Part shown: piece by piece, positions 1,968 to 9,795 of the stretch
How the letters are laid out: each line of letters opens with the position of its first letter
Position numbering within the stretch: position 1 is the stretch's first letter
Source: Thermaceae bacterium
GTDB taxonomy: Bacteria > Deinococcota > Deinococci > Deinococcales > Marinithermaceae
Direction: 5' to 3'
Assembly: GCA_015488545.1 (NCBI GenBank)
Contig: WFNN01000052.1
Coordinates: 1 to 35,893, forward strand
Length of the DNA: 35,893 bases
Position numbers and translations under genes: made by a program
The notes under the pieces: generated by a model
The model's input: the letters and a program-made list of their open reading frames with translations, nothing else
The model's database searches: none
Told to the model about the DNA's origin: nothing

Positions 1968-2699
1968 GTGGAACGGCTGAAGGAGGCCCGCGAGCGGATT
2001 CGGGCCGCTCGGCGCGTGGCGGTGCTTACCGGGGCCGGCATCAGCGCCCCTTCGGGCATTCCCACCTTCCGCGACCCTGGCGGCCTTTGGAAAAATTTCC
2101 GCCTCGAGGACTACGCCACCCCGGAAGGGTTTAAGAAAAACCCCGAAGAGGTCTGGCGCTGGTACGCCTGGCGCTACAAAAAGATTCGCGAGGCAAAGCC
2201 CAACCCCGCCCATCACCTCCTGGCCGAATTGGAACGGGAAAAGGGCGAGGGGTTTTTACTGGTCACCCAGAACATCGACGGCCTCCACCAGCGGGCCGGC
2301 TCGGAGCGTGTGGTCGAGCTCCACGGCAGCATCCACCGAGCCCGGTGCACGGTTTGCGATTTCCGGACCGAGCTCCCTGCGCCCGAGAAGCTAGAAAACC
2401 ACCTCCAGCCCAAATGCCCGATGTGCGGTGCCCTCCTGCGCCCTGACGTGGTCTGGTTCGGGGAGTACCTGCCTCCGGGGGCGCTGGAGATGGCGCAGAC
2501 CGCCTTCGCCTCGGCCGAAGTGGCGATGGTGGTGGGCACCTCGGCGGTGGTGGAACCGGCCGCCAGCCTGGGGCGGCTGGCCAAGCACGCCGGGGCCTAT
2601 TTGATCGAGGTCAACCCCGAGAATACCCCGCTCACCCTCCTGGCCGACCTCGCCCTGCGGGAGGGAGCGGTGGAGGGGCTCGCCCGCCTGCTCCGTTAA
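1968..2699 (+). CDS. cobB: SIR2-family NAD-dependent protein deacylase (class III-like)
   Basis: Removes acyl groups from lysine side chains using NAD+, releasing nicotinamide and O-acyl-ADP-ribose. The ORF track extends upstream over the divergent gene. I use the GTG at 1968, which gives 243 residues starting VERLKEARERI, the usual family length, and sits 6 nt after a -10 box. Visible motifs are GAGISAPSGIPTFRD (22-36), TQNIDGLHQ (100-108), the catalytic His in LHGS (about 119), and a zinc site of four Cys (127, 130, 150, 153). The YAWR sequence (Tyr66, Arg69) matches the YxxR pair that lets E. coli CobB and SIRT5 accept succinyl or malonyl lysine, so desuccinylase activity is plausible. Its stop overlaps that of the convergent pilin gene. 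Confidence 0.93.
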   Translation: MERLKEARERIRAARRVAVLTGAGISAPSGIPTFRDPGGLWKNFRLEDYATPEGFKKNPEEVWRWYAWRYKKIREAKPNPAHHLLAELEREKGEGFLLVTQNIDGLHQRAGSERVVELHGSIHRARCTVCDFRTELPAPEKLENHLQPKCPMCGALLRPDVVWFGEYLPPGALEMAQTAFASAEVAMVVGTSAVVEPAASLGRLAKHAGAYLIEVNPENTPLTLLADLALREGAVEGLARLLR

Positions 2700-3109
2700 G
2701 GGCAAGCGGTGCCCGGAGCCGAACGAGCCGGCCGGGAAGTCGCGTAAAGGCCTTTACCCGAACTCGCTGCGTACCACCGGGAACCCCAACGATGGCGGGC
2801 CATAAGGCAGTAGCGCTCGCCCCCCTCCAAGACCACCAGATCGAGCTGCGGCAAAGGTGCCCTAAGACCGGCACCCATCAACGCGCGACGGTTGGTGGCG
2901 TAGCCCCCGTGCTCGCTGGCGTACACCTCGTCAGCGGCGACCGCCTGCCGGAGGTAGGCTATCGCGGCCGCGTCATAGGCGCGGCGACGGGCACCCAGGA
3001 ACGAGGGAAGCGCAAGGGCCACGAGCACTCCCAGAACGGTCAAGACCACCAGGACTTCGATGAGGGTAAACCCTGAAAGGGGACGCCCCCACGGTGCCAT
3101 GCCATCCAA
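2696..3109 (-). CDS. Type IV pilin-like prepilin (GspH/PilA family)
   Basis: A 137-residue prepilin-like protein with a short basic leader ending in Gly, then the type III signal GFTLIEVLVVL (cleavage between Gly13 and Phe14, Glu at mature position 5) and a hydrophobic helix to about residue 37. The globular part carries two cysteines (101 and 136) that could form the C-terminal disulfide loop usual in pilins. It would be cleaved and methylated by PilD and assembled into a pilus or pseudopilus. No other pilus genes are nearby, so its partner system cannot be named. Either ATG 3109 or ATG 3100 could be the start. TAATCT lies directly upstream as a possible -10. It may be a minor pilin for DNA uptake, but that is not shown. 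Confidence 0.8.
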   Translation of the reverse strand: MDGMAPWGRPLSGFTLIEVLVVLTVLGVLVALALPSFLGARRRAYDAAAIAYLRQAVAADEVYASEHGGYATNRRALMGAGLRAPLPQLDLVVLEGGERYCLMARHRWGSRWYAASSGKGLYATSRPARSAPGTACP

Positions 3110-4559: not shown

Positions 4560-4636
4560 GGCGGTGTAGCTCAGCTGGTTAGAGCACGCGACTCATAATC
4601 GCGGAGTCGGCGGTTCGAGTCCGCCCACCGCCACCA
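4560..4636 (+). tRNA. tRNA with anticodon CAT (elongator Met or Ile2)
   Basis: A complete 77-nt cloverleaf. The acceptor GGCGGTG pairs with CACCGCC, followed by discriminator A and an encoded CCA. The D arm is GCTC..GAGC, the anticodon stem CGCGA/TCGCG with loop CTCATAA, and the T arm contains GGTTCGAGTCC. The first acceptor pair is intact and the anticodon stem lacks the three G-C pairs of initiators, so this is not tRNA-fMet. CAT may be read as elongator Met, or as Ile if C34 is modified to lysidine by TilS; part of the anticodon stem resembles E. coli Ile2. I favour Met, but sequence alone does not settle it. Confidence 0.93.
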
Positions 4637-4639
4637 AAG

Positions 4640-4668
4640 GCCGGGCCTATAGGCCCGGCACCGTTTTT
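4640..4668 (+). terminator. Intrinsic terminator of the tRNA
   Basis: The perfect palindrome GCCGGGCCTATAGGCCCGGC (4640-4659; 8-bp stem, TATA loop) is followed by ACCG and TTTTT, only 4 nt after the tRNA CCA. Confidence 0.85.
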
Positions 4669-4720: not shown

Positions 4721-5674
4721 TCAGAGCCTTCCGGCCAAGAACGCTTCCCGGAAAGCACGCGCGGTCTCGGCTATGCCCGCCTCGAAGGACCGCGTCACCC
4801 GCCAGCCCTCGGCCTTGAGCTTCGACGGGTCAAGAACGCTGCGGTAAAGGTCACCGGGCCGGCGCCCGGCGTACCGTACCTCGGGTTCGGCCTCGAGGGC
4901 CCGGGCGATGGTCCAGAGCACCTCCTCGGTGGTGTGCCCCTCGCCAGTACCGACGTTGTAAACGCCCAGAAGCCCCCTTTCGGCGGCCAGCAGGTTGGCC
5001 GCAACCACGTCGACGACGTGCACGTAGTCGCGAATGCCGCCGGCATCCCCGAGCGTCTCGCCGGCGAAGAGGGTACAGGGCTCGCCCTTCAGGATACGGG
5101 TCGCGAAAATCGCCACCACTCCAGCCTCGCCGTGGGGGTTTTGGCGGGGGCCGTAGACGTTGCCGTAGCGGAGCGAGGTGTAGGAAAGGCCGAACTCGGC
5201 CCGGAAGACCTCGAGGTAGTACTCGAACCCCGCCTTGCTGGCGGCGTAGGGGCTTTGGGGCCGGGGCAGCCAGTCCTCGCGCGCCCTTTCCCCTTCCGGC
5301 ACCTCGCCGTAGATCGCCCCTCCGGTGGAGGCGAAGACGAAGTGGCGGACGCCCGTCTCTTTGGCAGCCTCGAGCACGTTGAGCCCGCCAAGCAGGTTGA
5401 CGCTAGCGTCGTAGTGGGGGTCCTTGACGCTCACCGAAACCGAGGCCTGGGCCGCCTGGTGGAAGACAAGCTCGGGAGCGAAGGCCCGGAAGACCTCGAA
5501 AACCCCCTCGCGGTCCCGGATGTCGAGCCGATGAAAACGGGCTTTCGGGTTCAGGTTCTGCTCCAATCCCGAGGAGAGGTCGTCGAGGGCCAGCACCTCC
5601 GCCCCCCGGTCCACGAGGGCGTCCACCAGGTGGCTACCGATGAAGCCGGCGCCGCCGGTAACGATCGCACGCAT
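4721..5674 (-). CDS. NAD-dependent nucleotide-sugar epimerase/dehydratase (UDP-glucose 4-epimerase-like)
   Basis: A short-chain dehydrogenase of the extended SDR family that interconverts nucleotide sugars such as UDP-glucose/UDP-galactose. The 317 residues start with the NAD-binding motif TGGAGFIGSHLVD (7-19), followed by DDLSSG. The catalytic region has Ser/Thr in ASTGGAIYGEV and the YxxxK pair in SPYAASK, then RYGNVYGPRQ and a C-terminal substrate region (GVYNVGTGEGHT). Length and motifs fit GalE or a related 4-epimerase; the exact sugar cannot be read. It lies 16 bp after lutC on the same strand but has its own TAGAAT box 6 nt before the ATG, so it may be expressed as a leaderless transcript independently of the lactate genes. 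Confidence 0.9.
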   Translation of the reverse strand: MRAIVTGGAGFIGSHLVDALVDRGAEVLALDDLSSGLEQNLNPKARFHRLDIRDREGVFEVFRAFAPELVFHQAAQASVSVSVKDPHYDASVNLLGGLNVLEAAKETGVRHFVFASTGGAIYGEVPEGERAREDWLPRPQSPYAASKAGFEYYLEVFRAEFGLSYTSLRYGNVYGPRQNPHGEAGVVAIFATRILKGEPCTLFAGETLGDAGGIRDYVHVVDVVAANLLAAERGLLGVYNVGTGEGHTTEEVLWTIARALEAEPEVRYAGRRPGDLYRSVLDPSKLKAEGWRVTRSFEAGIAETARAFREAFLAGRL

Positions 5675-5680
5675 GGGGGC

Positions 5681-5686
5681 ATTCTA
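5681..5686 (-). promoter_or_regulatory. Leaderless -10 box of the epimerase gene
   Basis: TAGAAT on the minus strand is followed by GCCCCC and then the ATG at 5674. This is the 6-nt spacing expected when transcription begins at the start codon. No clear -35 was seen. Confidence 0.55.
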
Positions 5687-5690
5687 CGCC

Positions 5691-6602
5691 CTAGACGTAG
5701 CCGAGGGCGTGGAGAATGGCCCAAAGGTAGCCGGCTTTCGGTGGCCCTTTCAGTCCGAGCGCTTTGGCTACCGCTTCACCGAGTTCTTTCGGCCCCTGGG
5801 GCGATATACCGGCCTCGATCAGCTCAACGGCCTTTTTAACGTACTTTACGGGAAGCCCCTCTTTCTTGCCATTGGCCAGCGCAAGGTAGAGCGTATTCCC
5901 CGGCTTGGAGAGTCCCACGACGGTAAGCGTTTGGTTTTCCTTGGTGGTCAAGACCCGCCCTGTGAGCCCTTTTAAACGCTCTTCCAAGTTCACGGAACGA
6001 TCGCTTGCCTCCAAACCTACCGAGTCGAAGGTTAGTACCCCCACCCAGAGCTCCCCCGGCCCGTGCACCCCCTTCACCATAATCTGGCCGATATCCGCCG
6101 ACTTGCTGGGACCGGAGTGAAGGGCGAGGGCGGACACGCCGCCCCCCCGCAGCCGACGCAGGGCCTCTAGGAGCGAACCAAAAAGGTCACCGGCAAAAAG
6201 CCAAACCAGGTGCCGGGGCACGAGCAACTGCCCCCGGCGCCCCTCGCGGGCGGTGAGCACCACGCTGCCGGTTTCGGCCACCCCGGCCAAAGCTAGGCTC
6301 ACGCCAAGCCTGGCCCGTTCGGGCTCGGCCAGAGGCAGGCGGGGTCGCAGGGCTTCCGGCACCCCGGCCCCGGCCCAGGCGCTTTGGAGGCCGGACTCGG
6401 CCTCGGCAAGGAACCCCCGCGCCTCCTCCAGCGAATCGAGCCGCGCCACCCGGGCGCCTGCGGCCTCTAGTCGCGTTCGAAAAAGGGCGAAGGCTTCCTC
6501 GGGGTCGCGTTCCTCAGGCGCGATAACCGCCGGCAGCGCGGCCTCTGGCCGGCCGGTCAGCGCCCGCCGCACCCGGTAAAGGACCCTATCCCTCGCGCTC
6601 AT
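5691..6602 (-). CDS. lutC: LutC-family LUD protein with an extra C-terminal domain
   Basis: Third component of the LutABC L-lactate oxidation complex, cytoplasmic or membrane-associated. The LUD hallmark is clear: GVAETGSVVL at about 107-116 and SGPSKSADIGQIMVKGVHGPGELWVGVL at about 163-190. LutC proteins normally end about here (around 200-240 residues in total), but this one runs to 303. The extension (about 191-303) reads as a separate module: a beta-rich part (TGRVLTTKENQTLTVVGL, NTLYLALANGKKEGLP) and a helical end (KAGYLWAILHALGYV). Its layout reminds me of small modules attached to restriction-type and other nucleic-acid proteins, but I cannot name it. The start overlaps the lutB end by 17 bp. 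Confidence 0.85.
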   Translation of the reverse strand: MSARDRVLYRVRRALTGRPEAALPAVIAPEERDPEEAFALFRTRLEAAGARVARLDSLEEARGFLAEAESGLQSAWAGAGVPEALRPRLPLAEPERARLGVSLALAGVAETGSVVLTAREGRRGQLLVPRHLVWLFAGDLFGSLLEALRRLRGGGVSALALHSGPSKSADIGQIMVKGVHGPGELWVGVLTFDSVGLEASDRSVNLEERLKGLTGRVLTTKENQTLTVVGLSKPGNTLYLALANGKKEGLPVKYVKKAVELIEAGISPQGPKELGEAVAKALGLKGPPKAGYLWAILHALGYV

Positions 6603-7983
6603 CCTTGATCTCCTCCCAGAGCTCGTGGAAGGGCCTCGGGCTGGGCCGAAGGCCAGAGCGGAGGCGGGTCCAGGCCCGAACCAGGGGCAGCCGCTCGCTC
6701 TCGAGGGCCCCGGGAAACGCCCGCATCGCCTTGGAAGCGAGCCGGTAGGCCCGGGGCCGCACCACGGCCTCGGCGTAGGCCCGGACCATTGCCTTTTCCA
6801 TCGGCAGGAGAAGCCCCTCCTCGGCGGCCCGGTGCCGCCAGGTCAAAAGGAGCTTCGGAATCGGGATCTTCACCGGGCAGACCTCGGCGCAGGCGCCGCA
6901 AAGGGTGCTGGCGTGGTAAAGGGGGTAGGCCTCACCGGGGCCAAGCAGGGCGGGGGCTAGCACCTCGCCGATCGGCCCGGAATAGACGAAGCCGAAGGGA
7001 TGCCCGCCGGTCTGGCGGTAGACCGGGCACGCGTTCAGGCAGGCGCCGCAGCGAATACAGCGGAGCACCTCGCTGGCCTCGAGGTCGGCCAAGGCGGCGG
7101 TCCGGCCGTTGTCCACCAGCACCACGTGGACCTCTTCGGGGCCGTCGGTCTCGCCTTCCCGCCGGGGCCCATCGATCAGGCTGACAAAGGTGCCGATGGG
7201 CTGCCCGGTGGCCGCCCGGGCCAGCAGCTGCAAAAAGACCGCCAGGTCCTCGAAACGGGGCAGGAGCTTTTCGATCCCCACCAGGGCCACGTGCACCCGC
7301 GGCAGGCTGGTGGAAAGGCGAATGTTCCCCTCGTTCTCGACGAGGACGACGGTTCCGGTTTCGGCCACCAGGAAGTTGGCCCCGCTGATGCCGAGCTCGG
7401 CGGTGAGGAACTTCTCCCGCAGGAAAGCGCGGGCGGCCGCTGCCAGCGCCTCGGGGCTGGCGTCTGGCGGGGTACCCAAGCGTTCCGCGAAGAGCCTGCG
7501 AATCTCCGCCAGGCTTTTGTGGATCGCAGGCCCCACGATGTGGGAGGGGGGCTCACCGGCCAGCTGAATGATGAACTCGCCGAGATCGGTCTCGTAGACC
7601 TCCACCCCCTGGGCCTCCAAGAAGGCGTTCACCCCGAGCTCCTCGCTGAGCATGCTCTTGGCCTTGACCGCCCGTCGTACCCCGTGGGCCCGGACGATCT
7701 CGCCGAGCACCCGGTGCACGTCCTCGGGGCCCTCCGCCCAGTGAACCCGAACCCCGTTTTCGGTAAGGCGGGCCTCGGCGGCCTCGAGGTAGTCGGCAAG
7801 GCGCGAGAGCAAGTGGTCCTTCACCCCCTTGGCGTAGGTCCGCCAGGCCTCCGCCGGCGCCTCGGCGTAGGCCCGGGCCCGGTTCCGGTCGAAGTGCAAC
7901 GCCGCCCGGGTCACCGATTCCCGCACCTCTGGCCGTTGCTCGATCAGCTCGGCGGCCCGCCGGGGGTAGTCACGAAGCGCCAC
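6586..7983 (-). CDS. lutB: LutB-type iron-sulfur lactate utilisation protein
   Basis: Iron-sulfur subunit of the LutABC system that oxidises L-lactate to pyruvate and feeds electrons to the respiratory chain. The 465 residues comprise an N-terminal LUD domain (from about 60 to 300, with NFLVAETGTVVLVENEGN) and a ferredoxin-like domain with two 4Fe-4S motifs: CIRCGACLNACPVY and CGACAEVCPVKIP. A C-terminal LutB segment follows (LRSGLRPSPRPFHELWEE). Length matches the family. The gene overlaps lutA by 14 bp and lutC by 17 bp, indicating one coupled operon. All iron-sulfur cysteines are present. Confidence 0.94.
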   Translation of the reverse strand: MALRDYPRRAAELIEQRPEVRESVTRAALHFDRNRARAYAEAPAEAWRTYAKGVKDHLLSRLADYLEAAEARLTENGVRVHWAEGPEDVHRVLGEIVRAHGVRRAVKAKSMLSEELGVNAFLEAQGVEVYETDLGEFIIQLAGEPPSHIVGPAIHKSLAEIRRLFAERLGTPPDASPEALAAAARAFLREKFLTAELGISGANFLVAETGTVVLVENEGNIRLSTSLPRVHVALVGIEKLLPRFEDLAVFLQLLARAATGQPIGTFVSLIDGPRREGETDGPEEVHVVLVDNGRTAALADLEASEVLRCIRCGACLNACPVYRQTGGHPFGFVYSGPIGEVLAPALLGPGEAYPLYHASTLCGACAEVCPVKIPIPKLLLTWRHRAAEEGLLLPMEKAMVRAYAEAVVRPRAYRLASKAMRAFPGALESERLPLVRAWTRLRSGLRPSPRPFHELWEEIKDEREG

Positions 7984-8707
7984 TTCTCGCCTCCCAAAGC
8001 ACCTCGGCCAGGTGCCGAACGGGCAGGGCGTCCCCCCGGCGTTTCATCCGCCCGGCCAGGTGCAAAAGGCAGCCGGCGTCGGTGGAAACCAACGCCTCGG
8101 GTTCGGCCTGTCGGGGCAGGGTATCGAGCTTGCGGTCAGCCATCGCCACACTCACCACCGGCATCTTCACCGAGAAAACCCCGCCGAAGCCGCAGCACTC
8201 GCGATCGGCCTCCCAGGGTACGAGCTCGGCTCCGGCGTTCTGTAGAAGGAGCTCGGGCTCCTCCTCCACCCCGAGCTCCCGGAGCGCGTGGCACCCGTGG
8301 TGGTAGGCGAAGCGGCGCCCGGTCAGACCGTCGCCGAGCTTTTCGACCCCCAGCACCCGGACCAAAAATTGGCTGAGCTCGAAGGTCCGTTCGGCCAGGC
8401 TCACCGCCCTCCGGTAATCGGCCCCCCTTCCGACGAAGAGCTCCGGGTAGTGAACCCTAAGCATGGAACCGCAGGAGCCCGAGGGTAGCACCACGTAGTC
8501 GTAGCCTTCGAAGACCCCCATCGTATGACGGGCCATCCGCCTGGCCTCGTCCCAGTGACCGGCGTTGAAGGCGGGCTGACCGCAGCAGGTTTGCCCCCGG
8601 GGAAAATCCACCTCAACCCCGAGCGAACGGAGAAGACGCACGGTCGCCACCCCCGCCTGGGCGAAGAACTGGTCCACTAGACAGGTGGCAAAAAGCGCGA
8701 CGCGCAA
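7970..8707 (-). CDS. lutA: LutA/GlpC-like CCG-domain protein
   Basis: First subunit of the LutABC lactate oxidase, of the family with two CCG (heterodisulfide reductase-type) cysteine domains. The ORF track starts at 8806, but I place the start at the TTG at 8707 (LRVALFATCLVDQFF). It lies just downstream of GAAGGAGG and gives 245 residues, the usual size, whereas the upstream extension crosses the TATAAT box. Motifs are ATCLVDQFF (7-15), GQTCCGQPAFNAGH and, near the C-terminus, ECCGFGGVFSVKMP. It heads the minus-strand operon lutA-lutB-lutC and is divergent from the inositol operon. Confidence 0.92.
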   Translation of the reverse strand: MRVALFATCLVDQFFAQAGVATVRLLRSLGVEVDFPRGQTCCGQPAFNAGHWDEARRMARHTMGVFEGYDYVVLPSGSCGSMLRVHYPELFVGRGADYRRAVSLAERTFELSQFLVRVLGVEKLGDGLTGRRFAYHHGCHALRELGVEEEPELLLQNAGAELVPWEADRECCGFGGVFSVKMPVVSVAMADRKLDTLPRQAEPEALVSTDAGCLLHLAGRMKRRGDALPVRHLAEVLWEARSGAS

Positions 8708-8728
8708 ACCGGGTCCTCCTTCGGGGGG

Positions 8729-8734
8729 ATTATA
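8729..8734 (-). promoter_or_regulatory. lutA -10 box
   Basis: A perfect TATAAT on the minus strand, followed by CCCCCC, the ribosome-binding site GAAGGAGG and the TTG start. The -35 region (CTGGGG) is poor, which suggests activator dependence, or repression from the intergenic region shared with the inositol operon. Confidence 0.6.
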
Positions 8735-8776
8735 GCGCACCCTCGCGGCGACCCCAGGATCCCTCTGGGCGAGCGT

Positions 8777-8792
8777 GTTTCGAAAACGAAAC
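8777..8792. promoter_or_regulatory. Inverted repeat, candidate operator for the DeoR-family regulator
   Basis: GTTTCG-AAAA-CGAAAC is a perfect 6-bp inverted repeat in the 158-bp lutA/inositol intergenic region, 18 bp upstream of the -35 box of the inositol operon. GAAACG/CGTTTC cores are typical of DeoR-family operators, and a DeoR-type gene lies in this operon. A related half-site TCGAAA recurs at about 8818-8823, within the promoter spacer. Assignment is an inference. Confidence 0.5.
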
Positions 8793-8809
8793 GTACCAGA
8801 GCACAAACA

Positions 8810-8839
8810 TTGACAAATCGAAATGTGCCGACCTACACT
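8810..8839 (+). promoter_or_regulatory. Promoter of the inositol operon
   Basis: TTGACA (8810-8815), an 18-bp spacer and TACACT (8834-8839), ahead of GAAAGGGGGAAGGT and the ATG at 8866. The consensus -35 and the half-site within the spacer fit a strong promoter controlled by a repressor. Confidence 0.65.
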
Positions 8840-8865: not shown

Positions 8866-9795
8866 ATGCGAAAGGTTCTCGGTTTGGCGGTTATCCTCAC
8901 CGGTCTCCTGGTTGGCGGCGCCTACGCCCAGCGGTTCGTGGTGGTCACCCACGGGCAGGCCGCCGATCCTTTCTGGTCGGTGGTAAAAAACGGCGTCGAT
9001 CTGGCCGCCAAGCAGATGGGGGTCAAGGTGGAGTACCGCGCCCCCGAAACCTTCGACATGGTCCAGATGGGGCAGCTGATCGACGCCGCGGTGGCCTCCA
9101 AGCCCGACGGCCTGGTGGTCTCGATCCCCGACGCCGACGCCCTTGGGCCCCACATCCAAGCGGCGGTCAAGGCCGGCATCCCGGTGATCTCGATCAACTC
9201 CGGGGCTGACGTGTTCCAAAAGTTTGGCGTACTCATGCACGTGGGCCAGGAGGAATACATCGCCGGCAAGGGCGGCGGCGAAAAGATGCGGGCCATGGGC
9301 GTGAAGAAGGCGGTCTGCATCAACCACGAGGTCGGCAACGTGGCCTTGGACCAGCGCTGCCAGGGCTTTAAGGACGGCCTTGGTCCCGGGGCCAGCGTCG
9401 AGGTGCTGGCCGTTCCCACCGACTTCACCGAAGTCCGCAACGCGATCCTCGCCTACCTGCAGAAAAACCCCGACGTCCAGGGCATCCTGACCCTGGGGCC
9501 GGTGGGCGCCGAACCCACCCTGCAGGCCCTCGAGGAATCCGGCAAGATTGGCAAGATTGTCTTTGGGACCTTCGACCTCTCCCCGGCGGTGCTCAAAGCG
9601 CTTTCCGAAAAGAAAATGGCCTTCGCCATCGACCAGCAGCAGTTCCTGCAGGGCTACCTCCCCATCGTCTTTCTCACCAACTACGTGCGCTACGGCCTCC
9701 TACCCGCCAACAAGGTGGTGCTAACAGGCCCCGGGTTCGTAACCCCGGAAAACGCCGCCCAGGTCATCGCGCTTTCCAAGAAGGGCATCCGCTAG
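8866..9795 (+). CDS. CUT2-type sugar/inositol ABC transporter, periplasmic binding protein
   Basis: Extracytoplasmic solute receptor of the ribose/inositol type (Peripla_BP_4). The 309 residues begin with a signal peptide ([21 protein letters not shown], cleaved before QRFVVVTHG). The mature part has the two-lobe pattern of this family: [17 protein letters not shown], the [15 protein letters not shown] segment, [24 protein letters not shown] and [10 protein letters not shown]-like strands. It heads the inositol operon and is followed by its permease and ATPase, so myo-inositol or an inositol derivative is the likely ligand, in analogy with Caulobacter IbpA. The ligand is inferred from context. 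A strong hairpin follows the gene. Confidence 0.88.

Follow-up and report, generated by a model that had tools for sequence, protein, structure and literature searches.

An undescribed C-terminal domain on LutC in two Thermaceae genera, with a history apparently different from that of its operon

Known LutC proteins (PF02589; e.g. DR_1909 of D. radiodurans, PDB 2G40, and B. subtilis LutC) contain a LUD core with a GVHGPG motif and are encoded by the third gene of lutABC. According to the 2013 LUD paper (PMC3924224), the vast majority of LutC proteins have no domain other than LUD. The lutC gene described here shares this core, motif and gene position. It lies in a 35,893-nucleotide stretch of a Thermaceae bacterium (assembly GCA_015488545.1, contig WFNN01000052.1; hereafter the window), whose own genome is G000 in all genome comparisons. 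Known LutC proteins end with the LUD core, whereas those of the window's group carry 104–128 further residues. The closest cores outside this fused group are those of Thermus/Meiothermus-like bacteria and of genus g2, and LutB is also present in the genomes checked. These proteins lack the extension: (i) 48 of 48 scorable LutC proteins in the Thermus/Meiothermus-like sister family (f4), and one in family f2, end 11–29 residues past the start of the GPG motif; and (ii) the LutC of genus g2 (G001) is 190 aa long. We take G001 to be Marinithermus hydrothermalis and g2 to be Marinithermus. A literature search yielded no description of a LutC extension of this sort in titles or abstracts. We take the extension to be an undescribed domain and the form of LutC that carries it to be new.

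The window protein belongs to the LutC family on several grounds. PF02589 (LUD_dom) matches residues 96–187 only (E 1.9e-12; 47.8 bits against a curated cut-off of 22.6), and the 224-aa D. radiodurans protein (2G40) aligns with residues 5–189 and ends there. Genes for LutA (CCG) and LutB (LUD-Fer4-LutB_C) are adjacent. It departs from the typical, though not strict, pattern of LUD as the only domain in having a folded extra domain at residues 207–303. The whole extension comprises 113 residues (191–303; coding bases 5694–6032) in the same open frame as the core. A first-pass annotation, made from the sequence without database searches, had placed the core end near residue 190 with the frame open to 303; the Pfam limit, the 2G40 alignment and the 303-aa reading frame agree with this. 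Not every LutC protein has this C-terminus: 2G40 stops at the position corresponding to residue 189, and the f4 proteins lack the domain. The lutABC genes of the window are read as an ordinary predicted lactate-oxidation operon with an accessory domain on LutC (Table 1). The true start of LutA is probably internal to its reading frame because the LutA of a relative is 240 aa long. Between lutA and a divergent gene at 8866 lies a promoter-like TTGACA-18-TACACT sequence (8810–8839, + strand).

Table 1. Features of the lutC region in the window, with positions, strand and basis of assignment.
Feature	Positions	Strand	Description	Basis
galE-like sugar-nucleotide epimerase gene	4721..5674	-	Next gene downstream of lutC in the window's genus	Pfam Epimerase
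Possible -10 box	5681..5686	-	TAGAAT, or TATAAT in G009; just past the lutC stop and 6 nt ahead of the galE ATG	Sequence comparison; inference
lutC gene	5691..6602	-	303 aa including LUD core, linker and extra C-terminal domain; coordinates include the stop codon	ORF, Pfam LUD_dom
Segment with a putative history of its own	5694..6032	-	Low GC, near-random identity to closest relatives, genes on either side conserved	Identity, GC and tree comparisons
Three predicted C-terminal helices	5703..5849	-	Residues 252–300; conserved G-P and Y-x-W-x-[IVL]-L motifs	AlphaFold2; alignments
Predicted SH3-like small beta barrel	5850..5954	-	Residues 217–251; four strands	AlphaFold2; weak Foldseek matches to SH3/tudor-like barrels
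Linker	5985..6032	-	Residues 191–206; low predicted confidence, fast evolving	Full-length model pLDDT; dN/dS
LUD core	6033..6602	-	Residues 1–190	PF02589 to residue 187; PDB 2G40 to residue 189; core profile
lutB	6586..7983	-	LUD + 4Fe-4S + LutB_C; overlaps the lutC start	Pfam
lutA	7970..8806	-	Two CCG domains	Pfam

The extension had been described from its sequence as beta-rich and then helical, and the structural model bears this out. Modelled by itself with nine relatives (AlphaFold2), it reaches a pLDDT of 91.8 and a pTM of 0.81, with a short helix followed by four strands and three helices. In the full-length model, the extra domain has a pLDDT of ∼90 and residues 198–204 fall below 50, which suggests that the domain is tethered. 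Confidence in that model is lower in parts of the LUD core (residues 153–182), so contacts between the two domains are not readable from it. The extra domain is predicted to be compact and to fold independently of the LUD core.

Foldseek searches against the PDB and BFVD gave no match to the extension at E ≤ 0.001; mainly the barrel half was aligned, and most TM scores to the query were below 0.4. The best PDB matches, among those listed, have E values of ∼0.1 and TM scores to the query of 0.24–0.38 and cover the barrel only; the three-helix tail has no structural match. SH3 and tudor domains and the RNA-binding domain of ribosomal protein L2 weakly share the shape of a four-stranded small barrel over ∼40–55 residues, but they have no sequence similarity to the extension and none matches the whole domain (best TM 0.38 among the matches listed). 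Sequence searches against Pfam, NCBIfam and PDB sequences returned nothing above chance level, and PADLOC gave no match. PHROG matches (E 0.002–0.5) were taken as chance because they fall in different families for each member and cover only part of the domain. A YajC-like match (L139, E 0.011), from a distant genome, spans the barrel only and is a fold-level likeness at best.

These results bear on the possible ligand of the domain. The first-pass annotation had likened it to small modules beside nucleic-acid enzymes; this likeness did not materialize in PADLOC, nor beyond chance level in Pfam, PHROG or NCBIfam, and in the sequences searched the domain was found only in LutC rather than together with nuclease, helicase or methylase domains. 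Nucleic-acid binding nevertheless has to be weighed because of the weak likeness to SH3, tudor and L2 barrels and because the domain has a basic pI in every one of the nine proteins (9.6–10.9; the cores range from 5.5 to 10.1). LutC would then moonlight as an RNA- or DNA-binding regulator, e.g. with lactate metabolism feeding back on expression. However, the structural matches are poor, barrel-only and without a family match, no Lys or Arg is invariant, and highly basic segments are common, with 22% of 90-aa segments in the window reaching a pI of at least 9.6. We therefore consider this reading unlikely.

The 13 invariant columns of the domain alignment are all L, G, T, V, A, P, Y or W, and they include no acid, base, His, Cys or Ser, nor is there a conserved polar cluster. 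Absence of any invariant polar residue except one Thr suggests a binding rather than a catalytic role. It also weighs on the proposal, made in the first-pass annotation, that the extension is a sensing or regulatory domain, for which its place at the C-terminus of an enzyme subunit would speak. No result favours allosteric regulation by a bound small molecule (lactate, pyruvate or a nucleotide); the missing polar cluster and the lack of similarity to known ligand-binding families speak against it, and we regard it as very improbable.

The extension is present in 9/9 complete LutC proteins of the window's genus (G000, G008, G009 and G010) and the Oceanithermus genus (G002–G005 and G007), within a family of 14 genomes; no complete lutC was recovered from G006, G011, G012 and G013, which are outside this count (e.g. 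the gene is cut by contig ends in G012, and the contig ends beside LutB in G013). G003, taken as the cultured organism Oceanithermus profundus, encodes the same fusion on its 2,303,940-bp chromosome, the length published for that species (PMC3111992). Among 111 Deinococcota genomes, 85 of which have LutC, a profile of the domain is significant only in these LutC proteins. In a collection of genome contigs, scanned by one short motif, eight loci carry the domain, all in Thermaceae MAGs. Of the other Thermaceae in which the fusion might be sought, Oceanithermus and hot-spring MAGs have it and Thermus and Meiothermus do not. The carriers are bacteria of hot springs and hot vents.

No homologue of the extension was found outside these LutC proteins in ∼450 genomes (including ∼390 from many phyla and three smaller phyla), or in plasmids, phages and viral contigs, in searches whose reach is set by a profile of nine sequences. 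Plasmid and phage tblastn matches were rejected (E ≥ 1; the two inspected had either no matching gene or a gene on the opposite strand). Apparent second copies in G010 (contig C15) and G012 (C47) are tail matches at contig ends, i.e. overlapping or artefactual ends of the same gene. Contigs end in or beside lutC in three MAGs of the genus (L003/L012 of G010, L008/L028 of G012 and L141 of G013), and two overlapping contigs of G010 disagree in sequence within the extension, a hint of strain variation there. No free-standing gene for the domain was seen beside the Marinithermus lutC. In G001 (loci L022 and L143), lutB and the short lutC flank a 425-aa gene whose product resembles FAD-linked (berberine-bridge-like) oxidoreductases.

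Codon comparisons indicate that the extension is under purifying selection and has been kept in two genera. The dN/dS of the domain is 0.18–0.45 in closer within-genus pairs and 0.67 in the most distant pair (G005–G003), compared with 0.5–0.9 for the linker within Oceanithermus-like genomes and 0.15–0.32 for the LutC core in within-genus pairs. Fast evolution between genera and the abrupt drop of identity within lutC could be expected of a functionless read-through or a decaying remnant diverging by neutral drift, but the frame is open in all nine genes, and the extension is not lost by frameshift in close relatives. Together with the dN/dS of the closer pairs, the high-confidence fold and the G-P and Y-x-W motifs conserved across both genera, this leaves such a reading a negligible probability, in line with the first-pass view that the extension is no read-through.

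We also compared the history of the extension with that of its neighbours. G000 is sister to G010 in both the LutB tree (91% identity, support 83/90) and the GalE tree (89% identity, support 96/96), with G009 outside. By contrast, the extension of G000 is 50–54% identical to that of G009 and only 38% and 35% identical to those of G010 and G008, which are 78% identical to each other. G000 and G009 also have in common extra residues before the last helix. A G000+G009 clade is rejected by the core tree (AU p 0.004), as is a G000+G008+G010 clade by the extension tree (AU p 0.008), although the latter tree has long branches whose pull the AU test may share; G000+G009 is not significantly rejected in the LutB tree (AU p 0.15). 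Nucleotide identity between G000 and G008 is 0.90 at the core end, 0.32–0.49 across 6000–5761 and 0.97 across 5700–5641. GC drops where the core meets the extension, both in G000 (0.72 to 0.58) and in G009 (0.71 to 0.57); G008 and G010 show no such drop. The extension has a GC of 0.575 and a GC3 of 0.67, against 0.673 and 0.858 in the window genes, and none of 668 segments of 113 codons from these genes is as low in both. A lysine-rich composition lowers GC by itself, but GC3 drops as well. On these comparisons, the history of the extension is different from that of the rest of the operon.

Very fast evolution in place, whether of the window's extension or in two lineages, with no exchange, is an alternative to which we assign a low probability. 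It would agree with the faster evolution of LutC overall (the core is 67% identical between G000 and G010, against 91% for LutB), with comparable synonymous divergence from G008 in the core (pS 0.57) and the extension (pS 0.59) and with the last lutC codons common to G000, G008 and G010. It leaves unexplained the residues and the 54% identity in common with G009, the fall in GC and GC3, and the AU rejections. Domain exchange is the best reading of the discordant history, and the domain seems to have been swapped between related bacteria. The exchanged stretch may exceed the extension because the core is only 67% identical between G000 and G010 while the flanking genes are more conserved. The N-terminal part of LutC (6121–6540, - strand) is far more divergent from G010 than LutB and GalE are, and mosaicism may reach beyond the extension. 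A donor of the low-GC version was not found among the sequences searched.

Downstream, the stretch from the lutC stop across the gap to the galE start (5672–5700, - strand) hardly differs among G000, G008, G010 and G012. The TAGAAT sequence before galE would fit a leaderless promoter overlapping the lutC end.

Appended domains are a common means of stabilizing oligomers. The extension could accordingly serve oligomerization or thermostability by packing against the LutC dimer, with no separate partner, all carriers being thermophiles and the last helix having conserved hydrophobic and aromatic residues. However, the Thermus/Meiothermus-like LutC proteins, likewise from thermophiles, lack it, the linker is predicted to be disordered, and a swap for a ∼38%-identical version suggests no tight co-adaptation with the core; we find this explanation rather doubtful.

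We favour, at about even chance, a lineage-specific accessory domain on LutC that acts as a tethered docking module, the original having been replaced by a divergent, lower-GC version in the window's lineage. In this scheme, (i) the accessory domain would comprise a disordered linker and a basic module of ∼95 residues (an SH3-like barrel plus three helices); (ii) the module, judged solely from fold and residue pattern, would be non-catalytic and would tether a docking surface to the LUD core; (iii) its candidate partner would be a subunit of the lactate-oxidizing complex, an electron acceptor or a polyanion; and (iv) the replacement would have occurred by recombination inside lutC, with the conserved end of LUD on one side and the conserved final lutC codons and galE start on the other. 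More tentatively, the SH3-like barrel and three helices might represent an undescribed family that serves as an interchangeable cassette, in which the core is kept and the docking module is swapped by intragenic recombination, changing the partner of the enzyme; this is possible but less than probable.

The role of LutC in LutABC is unclear, and a natural LutC with a tethered domain offers a handle on LutC contacts: any molecule that the module binds would be a candidate for a partner or for an electron acceptor. Oceanithermus profundus is a cultured carrier of the fusion, so an experimental test is possible. The separate history of the extension also implies that part of a housekeeping enzyme may be exchanged as a module.

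Elsewhere in the window, a tRNA gene (4560–4659, + strand; anticodon CAT by eye) is directly followed by a terminator with a strong GC hairpin and a T-run, and a type IV pilin-like protein (2696–3109, - strand; GFTLIEVLVVLTVLGVLVALALPSF) adjoins a Sir2-like deacetylase ORF on the opposite strand.
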